Below, piece after piece: positions 9,676-13,241 of a stretch of DNA of 64,000 nucleotides. The position numbers and the translations under genes are program-made. Location of the stretch: assembly GCF_006716425.1 (NCBI RefSeq), contig NZ_VFOZ01000001.1, forward strand, positions 7,335,237 through 7,399,236, given 5' to 3'. A model generated the notes under the pieces. The model was given only the letters and a program-made list of their open reading frames with translations. It had not been told where the DNA came from and did no database searches. Positions within the stretch are counted from its first letter, which is position 1; each line of letters opens with the position of its first letter. The stretch is from Actinoallomurus bryophytorum. GTDB lineage: Bacteria; Actinomycetota; Actinomycetes; Streptosporangiales; Streptosporangiaceae.

Positions 9676-9822
9676 TCAGTGGTGCCGGTGGTGCACGACG
9701 TGGTGTACGACGTGGTGGTGGACCACGTGGTGATGAGAATGACCGCAGGCCGTGAGCCCGAACAGGGCGGGCACGAGGGCCACGCTCGCCACGGCGGCCA
9801 GGCGAAGTCGTTTGACCAGCAC
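9676..9822 (-). CDS. Histidine-rich mini-lipoprotein
   Basis: This 48-residue protein starts at GTG 9822, six bases after a GGAGGAAAA ribosome site. Residues 1-8 are basic, 9-22 hydrophobic, and LTAC (residues 23-26) is a lipobox, so the cysteine should be lipidated and the protein anchored outside the membrane. The mature 23 residues are Cys-Gly-His-Ser followed by runs of His, Val and one Arg; 14 of the last 21 residues are histidine. Such a tail would bind Zn, Ni, Cu or Co. Single copies with no other domain are unusual. It lies between the TetR and XRE-TPR genes on the same strand and after a strong terminator, so it probably has its own promoter. Confidence 0.65.
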   Translation of the reverse strand: MLVKRLRLAAVASVALVPALFGLTACGHSHHHVVHHHVVHHVVHHRHH

Positions 9823-9903
9823 GTCTTTTCCTCCGATGTTCAGCGGCCTTCCAGCACTCATTCAGCGTGTCCGGATAGGCGTACAAGGAAAGACGCAGCG
9901 CGA

Positions 9904-9977: not shown

Positions 9978-11276
9978 TCAGAGGTCCATGCAGGACAGCG
10001 CGCGCTGGAAGGCCGCCTTCTGCCCCTCGGGCTGGCCGGCCGCGCCGAACAACTCGGCGAGATCGAACCAGGTGCTCGCGGCCGGGCGGTGCGCCCCCAT
10101 GTTCTCCAGGTACTCCACGGCCTTCGACAGGGCCGCCACGAAGTCCTCGCGGCGGCCGAGCCTCCCGCACGCCTCACCGAGCACGGCATACGCCCTAGCG
10201 ATGGCGAGCCCGGCGGTCTCCTGCAGGAGCTCCGTCGCGCGGCGGGCCAGTGCGGCCGCCTCGACCGGATGCCCCAGCGTCAGCTCGGCCTGGGCCTCGA
10301 TGGTGACGCACCAGGCCATGTCGACGGTGCTCGCGGAGCTGGCGTCCAGCTCACGCTCGGCCTTGAGCAGGATCTCACGTGCCTGGTCCGCGCGCTCCGG
10401 ATGGGCGGTCATCAGGAACAGCGCGTACGCGGTCCGCAGCCGGCTGAGGTTGCGCGGGTCGTCCTCCTCGCCGAGGAGCGCGATCGCACGCTCGGCCAAC
10501 TTCAGCGCGGTCTCGAACTCGCCACGGGACTCCGCGACGAACGCCGCGTTCCAGTACACGGCCATCAGGGCCCGCGGGCTGCCGATCGTCTCGGCGCGTT
10601 CCACGAGAGCCTGGGCCAGCTGGGTGGCGTAGGCGAGGTCGCCGCGGTAGTAGTAGGCGCCGAGAGTGGTGGCACCGAGCATGACCATGGCGTCGCTCCA
10701 CTGGCCGCCACCTTCGGTCAGCTGCTCGAGCGCCTTTTCGCCCGCGTGGATGCTGGCGGCCAGGTCGCCGTGTTCACGCAGGCACCGGCTCAGCGCGATG
10801 TGCAACTCGGCCCATCGGTCGGGATCGGCCTGCGGCGAGGTCAGCTCCGCGGAGGCCCGCAGCTCGGCGACGGCCTCCTCCAGCGCACCCGTCGCCTCGA
10901 GCGCGAGCGCGTAACCCGACCGGGCCTCGAGCGCCAGCTCGGGCAGGTCGGCGAGCGCAGGGTGGGCCAGCACCTCGGTGAAGCACGTACGTGCCTCGTT
11001 CGCCTCGCCGTTCTGCAGGGCCATCTGCGCATACCGTAGGGTCTCCTGCAGCCCCGTCATCGCCTCCTCGGTCACCCCTGTCGTCAGGTAGGCGACCGAG
11101 CAGTCGAGCTTCCTGGCAAGGAGGGCCACCATGCTGGGCGCCGGAGTGCGCTTGCCGCTCTCGATCAGGGATACGTAGCTGTCGGAGAGCTCTGGCCACG
11201 CGAGCTGCGCCTGAGACAGGTTCCTCCTCAGACGCAGGTTACGTATCCGTTCGCCCAGCGATTCTTGACTTGGCAT
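9978..11276 (-). CDS. XRE-family regulator with TPR sensor domain
   Basis: This 432-residue protein has an N-terminal XRE helix-turn-helix (about residues 6-62: LGERIRNLRLRRNLSQAQLA, then SDSYVSLIESGKRTPAPSM) followed by some 350 residues of paired helices of tetratricopeptide type (EARTCFTEVLAHPALADLPE, DLAASIHAGEKALEQL, EFETALKLAERAIALL). HTH plus TPR is the layout of peptide-sensing regulators (Rgg, PlcR, NprR, AimR) in Firmicutes, and also of many actinobacterial regulators of unknown ligand. The ATG at 11276 is preferred, because AGAGGTGG precedes it by 6 bases; a GTG 9 bases earlier is possible. The gene is divergent from a small secreted-peptide gene 52 bases away, the obvious candidate partner. 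Confidence 0.85.
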   Translation of the reverse strand: MPSQESLGERIRNLRLRRNLSQAQLAWPELSDSYVSLIESGKRTPAPSMVALLARKLDCSVAYLTTGVTEEAMTGLQETLRYAQMALQNGEANEARTCFTEVLAHPALADLPELALEARSGYALALEATGALEEAVAELRASAELTSPQADPDRWAELHIALSRCLREHGDLAASIHAGEKALEQLTEGGGQWSDAMVMLGATTLGAYYYRGDLAYATQLAQALVERAETIGSPRALMAVYWNAAFVAESRGEFETALKLAERAIALLGEEDDPRNLSRLRTAYALFLMTAHPERADQAREILLKAERELDASSASTVDMAWCVTIEAQAELTLGHPVEAAALARRATELLQETAGLAIARAYAVLGEACGRLGRREDFVAALSKAVEYLENMGAHRPAASTWFDLAELFGAAGQPEGQKAAFQRALSCMDL

Positions 11277-11328
11277 CCCGCCCACCTCTACAAGAAAGTG
11301 ACAGAACTACACGAAAGGATAGAAAAGA
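11277..11328. promoter_or_regulatory. Divergent control region between XRE-TPR gene and peptide gene
   Basis: Only 52 bases separate the two start codons, so promoters and any operator must overlap this gap and the coding ends. For the peptide gene, TTGACT inside the XRE start (about 11266-11271), spaced 18 bases from TACAAG, is a possible promoter, and AAGGAT lies 9 bases before the ATG. The same stretch is recognisable at about 12950-12998 in front of the decayed copy, where a deletion has removed 8 bases including the XRE start codon. Confidence 0.45.
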
Positions 11329-11475
11329 ATGTCACAACTTCGGAGAGCCATCGCTGCGATCGTCCTTGCGACGATGGGAGGGCTCGTCGGGTTCGGGTTC
11401 GTCGGAGCCGGCTACACCGCCGCTTCGGCCGCGCCCATGCGGGCGCCGCAGACTGTTCCAATCGTCTGCTGCTGA
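11329..11475 (+). CDS. Small secreted peptide precursor divergent from the XRE-TPR regulator
   Basis: This 48-codon gene, too short for routine gene calling, encodes MSQLRRAIAAIVLATMGG.. and ends ..QTVPIVCC. The N-terminus is a textbook signal peptide: basic n-region (LRR), a hydrophobic core of about 22 residues, and an Ala-Ser-Ala cleavage site (residues 32-34). Cleavage would release a 14-residue product from Ala35 to Cys48, rich in Pro and ending Cys-Cys. AAGGAT stands 9 bases before the ATG. The head-to-head placement with an HTH-TPR regulator suggests an autoinducer propeptide; a secreted toxin or bacteriocin-like peptide is the alternative. A related signal peptide survives in the decayed copy at 12999. 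Confidence 0.6.
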   Translation: MSQLRRAIAAIVLATMGGLVGFGFVGAGYTAASAAPMRAPQTVPIVCC

Positions 11476-11879
11476 CGTTCTGACCTGTAGTTTCTCGATG
11501 ATCGGCACCAGCTTGAAGGTGTCCCGGACACGGTAGGACCGGCCGGGATCGACACTTCGACGGCCCGCGAGCGTCGGATGGTCCATCCCGGCCACATCCG
11601 AAGGATGTCAGTAATGGCCTAGTGTGGCCGTGGTCGGACGGTCACCGATACCGACCGCCACGGGGGTACCCGGCCCTCCGATGCGCCTGCGGTAGGCCCG
11701 CGCCCCCGCCGAACCCCCCGGACCGGCACGGAACGCCTGCAGGGGCTTCGCCGTTCTACGACGGGGTACGTGGACCGGCCACCGTCTCTTCGATGCCCGG
11801 GGGAGCGGCGCGGTCACCGCCACCGAACACGAACCCCGTCATCGGCGCGACCTGCCGCACCACCGACGCGTGGCGGATC
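11476..11879. other. Non-coding stretch between the two copies of the XRE/peptide block
   Basis: No convincing gene is seen here. The minus strand near 11485-11597 reads DHPTLAGRRSVDPGRSYRVRDTF, which has protein-like composition and might be a scrap of a transposase or ATPase, but it is too short to name. The rest has frames open by base composition only. The region probably marks the junction of a tandem duplication that has since decayed. Confidence 0.4.
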
Positions 11880-12144
11880 GTCCGCCCTGTACTTCGAGAC
11901 CTGCTTGGACACGGCGCTCTCCGTCTCACGGTTGTGAAGGCGTACGGCGTCCGCGCGCAGCCGGGAGAGCAGACCCTCCTTTGCGGCACAGCGCCGACAG
12001 AGGGCGCTGAGACCGACACCGGCGCGCCCGGCCGCGCGGTCGACAGGGGAGCCGCCCGGATCCGCGGCGAACACCGTACGTGCGGAAGTCGGGATGAGCT
12101 CGCCGTTTGCATGCCACCTGACCGGGGCGACCGTCCACCGGCAT
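11880..12144 (-). pseudogene. Frameshifted TetR fragment (second copy)
   Basis: From the ATG at 12144 the first codons (MPVDGRPGQVA) match the start of the intact TetR gene at 9571 (MPLNGRRAQAA). A frame change then follows, after which VFAADPGG, AGRAGVGLSALCRRCAAKEGLLSRLRADAVRLHN clearly matches the VFAADPSA, AERAGVGISALYRRSASKEDLLRRLCADAVRRYN region of the intact gene. Similarity ends near 11900 and the ligand domain is missing. This is a dead partial copy. Confidence 0.75.
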
Positions 12145-12463
12145 GGACCGAACTCGGCTCGTCTGTGGGATGTTCCACCCGCCCGCCGCGCTCACTGCGG
12201 TCCGCGCTCACTGCGGCCACCGCCCGCCGCGCCTTCGCCTGCGCGGCCGAAGCCTGCCGCGCCCCGAGGCGGCCCGTAGCGGGTCGGCCTCCCGTGGCCT
12301 CCAGGCCACCGATCGGCGCCCATGGTGCGACGACGCCGGGCCCACGGTGCGAAGAACGCCGCTGGACCTCCGGGGAGTGACTCGGTCCGCGTTCCAGACG
12401 GGAGCCCCTCAAGGCCCATCTGTGCCGCGTGAGGGCCCGCGGCGCCATGCGCCGCGTGGCCCG
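12145..12463. other. Degenerate spacer upstream of the TetR fragment
   Basis: About 320 bases of very GC-rich sequence lie between the TetR fragment and the tandem repeat. By position it should correspond to the lipoprotein gene and the 3' half of the XRE-TPR gene of the intact copy, but no His-rich tail, lipobox or TPR sequence is recognisable in any frame. Open frames here look like composition artefacts. Confidence 0.4.
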
Positions 12464-12643
12464 CCCGCGTCCGGTCTCGCGCCCGCGTCCGGTCTCGCGC
12501 CCGCGTCCGGTCTCGCGCCCGCGTCCGGTCTCGCGCCCGCGTCCGGTCTCGCGCCCGCGTCCGGTCTCGCGCCCGCGTCCGGTCTCGCGCCCGCGTCCGG
12601 TCTCGCGCCCGCGTCCGGTCTCGCGCCCGCGTCCGGTCTCGCG
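12464..12643. repeat. 18-bp tandem repeat, ten units
   Basis: Ten head-to-tail copies of CCCGCGTCCGGTCTCGCG occur without a mismatch; GGTCTC recurs every 18 bases from 12473 to 12635, and a degenerate partial unit follows. The minus strand reads (ARPDAG)n in the frame of the decayed XRE-TPR gene, directly after residues matching its first TPR helix (AHPALADLPALA). The array therefore seems to have grown out of that coding sequence. There are no unique spacers, so it is not CRISPR. Copy number is likely to vary between strains. Confidence 0.9.
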
Positions 12644-12949
12644 TCCGCGTCCGCGTGCGCCAGTGCCGGCAGGTCGGCGAGCGCCGGGTGGGCCAGCACC
12701 TCGGCGAAGCACGGACGTGCCTCCTCGGTGGCGCCGTTCCGCAGGGCGATGTGGGCGTACCGGATGGTGTCCTGAAGCCCGGTCATGGCCTCTTCGGTCA
12801 CGCCCGTCGTGAGGTAGGCGGTCGAGCTTCTGTGCCAGCAGGGCCACCATGCGTAACGATCGGATAGTTCGGGCCACGCAAGCTGAGCCTGAGACATGGT
12901 CTTCCGCAGGCGCAGGTTACGTATCCGTTCGCCCAGGGATTCTTGACTT
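12644..12949 (-). pseudogene. Decayed XRE-TPR regulator (second copy)
   Basis: The minus strand between 12949 and 12644 matches the first 100 residues of the intact regulator: SQESLGERIRNLRLRK, MSQAQLAWPELSD, then AYLTTGVTEEAMTGLQDT and EVLAHPALADLPAL. Three lesions are visible. The start codon and flanking bases are deleted (the intact GGGATGCCAAGTC has become GGCAAGTC). About 14 codons covering the recognition helix (VSLIESGKRTPAPS) are missing, with a frameshift just after. The rest of the TPR domain is replaced by the 18-bp repeat. It cannot encode a working regulator. Confidence 0.82.
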
Positions 12950-12998
12950 GCCCACCTCTACAAGAAAGTGACAGAACTACGCGAGAGAACAGAAAAGA

Positions 12999-13241
12999 GC
13001 GTCACATCTTCGCAGGGCCATCGCCCTGGTCGTTCTGGCCTTCATCGGGGGCCTCGTGCCCCTTGGAACGATCGTCGCCGTCTCCACCCCCGCGTCGGCC
13101 GTCGTCGCGGCGCCGCTGGCCGAGCCTCACGGCACCGGTACGTGCCGTCGCAGGCGGCAAGCCGACTCGAGCCTCGGTGGCCGCCCCTCGGCCGGGTGCG
13201 GAATGGCCGTCGGGGCTTCGCTGTTGTGGCAGGGGCGGTGA
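12999..13241 (+). pseudogene. Decayed secreted-peptide gene (second copy)
   Basis: Where the intact peptide gene has ATGTCACAACTTCGG, this copy has GCGTCACATCTTCGC, so the start codon is lost. The frame that follows keeps a signal-peptide pattern, SHLRRAIALVVLAFIGG, then a hydrophobic stretch and TPASA as a cleavage site. It then runs on past the length of the intact peptide to a stop at 13239-13241. The product region bears no resemblance to PQTVPIVCC. The retained signal peptide next to a changed C-terminus could reflect either decay or divergence of the signal before the start codon was lost. Confidence 0.65.

Follow-up and report, generated by a model that had tools for sequence, protein, structure and literature searches.

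Cytoplasmic peptide-pheromone receptors of the RRNPP kind have been described from Bacillota. Here we report a putative counterpart in Actinomycetota, encoded on a 64,000-nucleotide stretch of the Actinoallomurus bryophytorum genome (RefSeq assembly GCF_006716425.1, contig NZ_VFOZ01000001.1, positions 7,335,237 to 7,399,236, hereafter the window), which consists of an XRE-type regulator with a helix-turn-helix (HTH) domain and tetratricopeptide repeats (TPRs) and of a divergent 48-codon open reading frame (ORF) for a small propeptide ending in Cys-Cys (CC). In the accessible text of PMC10075063, the RRNPP signature is given as a Sec-type propeptide of 10-100 amino acids, a receptor of 250-500 amino acids with C-terminal TPRs, and receptor and propeptide genes that are direct neighbours at -60 to 400 bp. 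The window propeptide has 48 amino acids (33-63 over the 135 loci presented below), and its signal is of the Sec type by hydropathy and charge criteria, with an AXA site found by inspection (SignalP having been used in the survey, according to the same text); the receptor has 432 amino acids with C-terminal TPRs in Pfam and in an AlphaFold2 model, and the two start codons lie 52 bp apart. An earlier note, made from the sequence alone, had proposed an RRNPP-type pair composed of a 432-residue HTH-TPR gene lying head to head, at 52 bp, with a 48-codon ORF for a signal peptide and a 14-residue product ending PIVCC. The layout is confirmed by the ORF list and Pfam, the Sec-like signal and the tail are present in the sequence, with export being predicted, and the interpretation is supported by the recurrence of the pair and by covariation of TPR residues with tail type, both described below. 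In their accessible text, two genomic surveys of peptide-pheromone receptors report on Firmicutes, and one of them states that Actinobacteria typically use enzyme-made small molecules (PMC10075063). No such receptor-peptide pair in actinobacteria was found in the open-access literature searched, and this widespread actinobacterial family, RRNPP-like in design and with a Cys-Cys signature, is apparently undescribed. The main features of the pair are as follows.

9978..11276, -: XRE-TPR regulator, the proposed receptor, 432 amino acids, HTH and nine TPR helix pairs (ORF list, Pfam, AlphaFold2 model)
11085..11246, -: HTH domain, residues 11-64 (Pfam HTH_3, E 1.2e-9; ratio of nonsynonymous to synonymous rates, dN/dS, about 0.04)
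9990..11069, -: TPR domain, residues 70-429, with the proposed CC pocket T203, A239, W242, N243 and N276 on predicted A helices of TPR4-6 (covariation, AlphaFold2 model)
11329..11475, +: propeptide gene, 48 codons, ATG start (ORF list; CC-ended counterpart in the genus)
11329..11430, +: Sec-type signal part, residues 1-34, putative cleavage ASA/A (sequence by inspection, hydropathy criterion)
11431..11472, +: predicted 14-residue exported product APMRAPQTVPIVCC (sequence; processing predicted)
11467..11472, +: C-terminal Cys-Cys codons (CC ends 135/147 signal-bearing short ORFs beside receptors)

The short ORF encodes MSQLRRAIAAIVLATMGGLVGFGFVGAGYTAASA/APMRAPQTVPIVCC (signal part/tail), that is, a basic N-terminus followed by a hydrophobic stretch, the ASA/A site and a tail ending VPIVCC, and it matches no Pfam or NCBIfam family. 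Its neighbour starts with ATG, an alternative GTG at 11285 giving 435 amino acids, and matches HTH_3 (as above) and TPR_12 (E 1.4e-9). The AlphaFold2 model has a mean pLDDT, its own confidence score, of 94.8 and contains 24 helices; those after the HTH are paired by us into nine predicted TPRs. The PlcR profile matches the regulator at E 2.1e-15, spanning the HTH and part of the TPRs, with unrelated TPR proteins fitting the fold equally well. PHROGs matches are general regulators, and an NCBIfam scan gave nothing above cut-offs; NsdA family TPR regulators (NF053720) match weakly over TPR parts, at 38.9 bits against a curated cut-off of 75 bits. Unlike PlcR-PapR and NprR-NprX, which belong to Bacillota, the present pair occurs in Actinomycetota, with a mostly Cys-Cys-ended peptide and a mostly divergent layout. 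It differs from Rap-Phr and AimR-AimP in that the tails carry CC and the receptor has an HTH, which Rap lacks, although TPR-only relatives in one genome (G1058) could be a Rap-like counterpart. In that genome, three neighbouring TPR-only matches (G1058:C11:5330-9035, query from residue 68-70) are reminiscent of Rap proteins. The gamma-butyrolactone type quorum sensing of actinobacteria shares the phylum and the presumed population signalling, but its receptors are TetR-type, whereas here a gene-encoded peptide is combined with an XRE-TPR receptor.

Recurrence of the pair and constraint on the short frame

The source genome (9.47 Mb; named relatives, Actinoallomurus species and Actinomadura sp. 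DC4) encodes a second pair, whose receptor is 51% identical and whose tail is VFHCC (L002), and a third receptor for which a partner was not found (L003). The pair with a CC-ended short ORF is present in all eight genomes of the genus examined (L001, L036-L042). At the family level, a match at E 1e-60 was obtained in 189 of 297 sampled genomes, and from this match list 20 new loci were taken automatically and 80 were chosen among the matches listed. CC ORFs at most 300 bases away on the divergent side were found at 81/131 loci of a first set and, by the same rule, at 27/49 loci of a second set that partly shares its genes with the first. Under a strict rule (CC-ending, hydrophobic, 36-66 codons, start at most 110 bases off, divergent side, identical receptors removed), 100 of 168 distinct loci were positive, compared with 34 of 77,626 control anchors placed at other sites of these loci. 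When all start codons and orientations were allowed and the signal was judged by hydropathy and charge, 135 of 204 distinct XRE-TPR receptors, pooled from five locus sets, had an adjacent signal-bearing CC short ORF, while there were no CC-type ORFs inside receptor coding sequence in 537,006 strand-bases. The check called for in the earlier note, for signal ORFs of 40-60 codons divergent from XRE-TPR genes in related genomes, is strongly positive.

These 135 partners are divergent in 106 cases (median start-to-start distance, 55), convergent downstream in 28 (ORF start 107-631 bp beyond the receptor end) and codirectional in one. Shine-Dalgarno-like stretches precede 98 of the 106 divergent starts, a raw count with no control set. 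Wider flanks were inspected at 20 loci, of which 12 carried seemingly partnerless receptors of families f16, f28 and f40 keeping much of the pocket and 8 were new; CC partners emerged for 6 of these 12 receptors, most of them lying convergent downstream and one codirectional, and at all 8 new loci, and two of the six receptors still without a partner (L270 and L271) stop at contig ends. Family f28 had a match in 37 of 149 genomes, with further CC partners of the same kind, and Nonomuraea gerenzanensis also has a CC partner. For family f20, presumably Streptomyces, no genome matched at E 1e-70 or E 1e-60. The earlier account did not include the near-constant Cys-Cys, the convergent and codirectional layouts, tails with other ends or a decayed duplicate of the pair in the window. 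At L305 and L307, two CC propeptide ORFs with nearly identical tails stand in tandem downstream of one receptor.

The residues before CC are hypervariable, with 128 distinct 8-residue tails among the 135. Six genomes of one group share the tail GPRVHCC despite different signal parts, and this suggests roughly the last seven residues as the candidate working peptide. Pooled over 39 disjoint pairs, dN/dS is 0.49 for the signal part and 0.69 for the ten-residue segment that precedes CC and, in the receptor, 0.24 for the TPRs and 0.045 for the HTH. Changes in the signal part are in excess at third codon positions (314 versus 222 and 154), a protein-like pattern, and hardly so in the tail (178 versus 176 and 142). 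Judged by these substitutions, constraint acts on the short frame at the level of the protein. The lack of nonsynonymous change at CC was discarded as evidence, since the pairs had been chosen for ending in CC.

Tail type and the receptor groove

Beside twelve receptors, the signal-bearing short ORF has an end other than CC, the search for such endings having been less exhaustive than that for CC. Eight of them form a clade in which seven tails are Trp/Pro-rich (GWNHPG, GWGWPG, WQWPI and similar) and one ends PLNNAE, and four loci outside the class end FPWPK, YPWPK, FPGP and FPWGGT. As the earlier note had suggested examining, TPR residues do covary with tail type. Among 432 columns, the best separators of CC receptors from the 12 others were N276, G179, N243, A239 and T203, four of these five being placed by the model on A helices of TPR4-6, which in TPR proteins line the concave groove; positions 203, 239 and 276 are spaced by 36 and 37 residues on these predicted helices. 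The 135 CC receptors carry Thr203 in 130 cases, Ala239 in 108 (Ser in 23), Asn243 in 123 (Glu in 11) and Asn276 in 122, whereas 10, 12, 11 and 12 of the 12 other-tail receptors differ at positions 203, 239, 243 and 276. The full pocket (T203, small residue at 239, W242, N or E at 243, N276) is found in 118/135 CC receptors, 0/12 other-tail receptors and 8/57 receptors without a partner. Glu243 accompanies a His just before CC in all 11 CC receptors that have it, in two separate lineages, one case (L256 of family f16; tree row L211) lying far from the others on the tree.

The earlier note had regarded homologous loci without the short ORF as a counterargument. The objection holds only in part: one large clade is indeed without it, yet this clade nests inside peptide-bearing lineages, and the putative peptide pocket has relaxed there. 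Mean TPR entropy is 0.72 in the partnerless clade and 1.43 in the CC core, and 22 TPR positions are at least 0.8 bit more variable in the former; 10 of these fall on predicted A helices of TPR4-6 (p 2.8e-4), and the other-tail clade shows 7 relaxed positions, of which 4 belong to this set of 22 (p 3.3e-4), these p values ignoring phylogeny.

Proposed mechanism and alternative explanations

The pair quite probably represents a peptide pheromone and its cytoplasmic receptor that work like the RRNPP systems of Bacillota. What the data show is the pairing, its conservation, constraint on the encoded protein, covariation between tail type and groove residues, and a predicted fold; from these, a signalling function of the actinobacterial family can be inferred with fairly high confidence. 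The 48-residue propeptide would leave the cell through Sec and be cleaved at the signal or beyond it, which would release a short C-terminal peptide ending Cys-Cys. This mature peptide, the candidate ligand, would re-enter the cell and bind in the concave groove of the TPR superhelix, where the conserved residues T203, A239, W242, N243/E243 and N276 may hold the constant Cys-Cys end. The variable residues 206, 209, 210, 246, 250, 282 and 286 may read the variable tail, the weakest step, since hypervariable positions are not enriched on the groove helices. Binding would alter receptor activity by shifting the N-terminal HTH on an operator in the common 52-bp promoter region, and the output would be autoregulation of both genes together with control of other targets.

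Several observations weigh against this mechanism. No short signal ORF was detected in the stretch examined for 57 of the 204 receptors, some of which are cut at contig ends or have short flanks (one of them, L213, is identical with the gene of L258, where a partner is present); the partnerless clade, of 43 rows, keeps the receptor without the peptide, and the eight partnerless receptors mentioned above retain the full pocket. Six plasmid XRE-TPR loci examined, from sixteen records listed (identity of 32-40% in Streptomyces and 45% on a Streptosporangium plasmid), lacked a short divergent ORF with a signal. Most of the E243/His cases are related by descent, L266 has His before CC together with Asn243, and the other-tail clade has a single origin, so that some of the change in its receptors could reflect drift. 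Position-by-position mutual information of receptor and tail did not rise above noise with some 55 effective sequences, residue 243 coming fourth for tail position -3. In the CC core, 6 of the 40 TPR positions with the highest variability lie on predicted TPR4-6 A helices, with about 6 expected by chance (52/360), and variability is highest in TPR7-9. TPR dN/dS of CC receptors is not above that of the peptide-less clade (p 0.82) and, in pairs of at least 85% identity, amounts to 0.14 compared with 0.22; faster TPR evolution was therefore dropped as a sign of a receptor-ligand race. Positive selection on the tail was not seen, its pooled dN/dS being below 1, and generic TPR proteins fit the receptor fold no worse than Rap does.

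Comparison of 23 neighbourhoods revealed, apart from the receptor, no cluster spanning more than 12 of them, and neighbours differ between families. Gene names here derive from reading the sequences. In much of the f1 set, CopC, CopD/CtaG-like, xanthine dehydrogenase-like and PucR-like genes are nearby, and in part of it (e.g., L223, L227 and L237) a CopC-like gene follows the receptor and is itself followed by a CopD/CtaG-like gene, which suggests a possible copper link for these loci. ZnuA-like and HisC-like genes occur near L230 and in f21, respectively. A conserved metal-homeostasis partner was ruled out, as the CopC/CopD-like neighbours occur in only part of the family, and no modifying enzyme stands out as a common neighbour in the 23 neighbourhoods. 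Downstream of the window receptor, a 61-residue ORF (9676-9861, -) begins like a lipoprotein and has a tail rich in His (CGHSHHHVVHHH...), and a similar His-rich piece is present at L041.

It is unlikely that the regulator controls the peptide gene without binding its product, the peptide acting outside the cell as an antimicrobial, metal- or redox-active or surface compound and the TPRs sensing otherwise. Such a role would fit the divergent regulator-target layout, the hypervariable tails, the metal-linked neighbours of some lineages (part of f1, L230) and the His-rich lipoprotein-like ORF of the window; yet tail type follows groove residues both within the other-tail clade and at the four loci outside the class, pocket constraint is relaxed where the peptide is absent, and the metal-linked neighbours are not common to all families. 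Rather doubtful, and overlapping with pheromone signalling, is the idea that Cys-Cys forms a chemically gated signal (a vicinal disulfide, a Cu or Zn complex, or a modified thiol), through which the pair would report redox or metal state besides or instead of density. The near constancy of CC, the paucity of other Cys (16 in 4,536 peptide residues, at loci chosen for CC), the metal-linked neighbours of some lineages and receptor Cys165, which lies on a predicted TPR A helix and is found in 116/135 CC receptors, favour it; Cys165 is kept alike in partnerless (55/57) and most non-CC receptors (8/12) and is thus not CC-specific, and no shared modifying enzyme stands out nearby. Short ORFs are common in the window, but a chance ORF, or an artefact of annotating GC-rich DNA, is exceedingly improbable in view of the control-anchor comparison, by which it was ruled out, the recurrence over several families and the protein-like substitution pattern of the signal part.

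With regard to pheromone signalling, one tentative possibility is a peptide language across the phylum Actinomycetota, in which a private, fast-changing word and a near-constant, chemically meaningful Cys-Cys mark would report kin identity and redox or metal state; a dedicated XRE-TPR receptor would read word and mark, and some lineages would use other, mostly Trp-Pro-rich ends with matching groove changes. Recurring across many actinobacteria of the soil, the pair is a candidate for such a language in organisms whose signalling is attributed chiefly to small molecules. Antibiotic producers are found among these genera, and many of their gene clusters are silent; if the signalling is true, cheap synthetic peptides of the predicted sequence are testable inducers, strain by strain. 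The 135 receptor-peptide pairs, with their altered or lost partners, form a natural set for how TPR grooves choose peptides.

Control region and decayed second copy

Between the two start codons lies an operator-like direct repeat, and remains of a second pair are located at about 12.6-13.1 kb of the window.

11288..11317, no strand: operator-like 11-bp direct repeat CTACAAGAAAG-8-CTACACGAAAG (genome scan)
12583..12948, -: decayed further copy of the XRE-TPR gene, with an 18-bp tandem array (12462-12653) running into it (sequence comparison)
12958..12987, no strand: the operator-like repeat again, with 2 mismatches (genome scan)
13002..13121, +: decayed further copy of the propeptide gene, lacking its start codon and with a frame passing the CC end (sequence comparison, inspection)

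Allowing at most 3 mismatches, the repeat has two matches in the genome, at the pair and at the decayed copy, and the reversed control has none. It would suit a putative private autoregulatory operator, because its only match elsewhere is at the decayed copy; a genome-wide regulon via this repeat was ruled out on the same grounds. The decayed duplicate (11756-13140) takes in, besides the XRE-TPR and propeptide genes, part of the TetR-like gene, and the tandem array within its XRE-TPR part consists of 10.7 copies of the 18-bp unit with 99% matches. At L249-L252, the loci outside the class, the divergent ORFs have 28-40 codons and FPWPK-like ends, and a TTAAC...GTTAA inverted repeat, identified by inspection, flanks a TTGACT-type promoter element.
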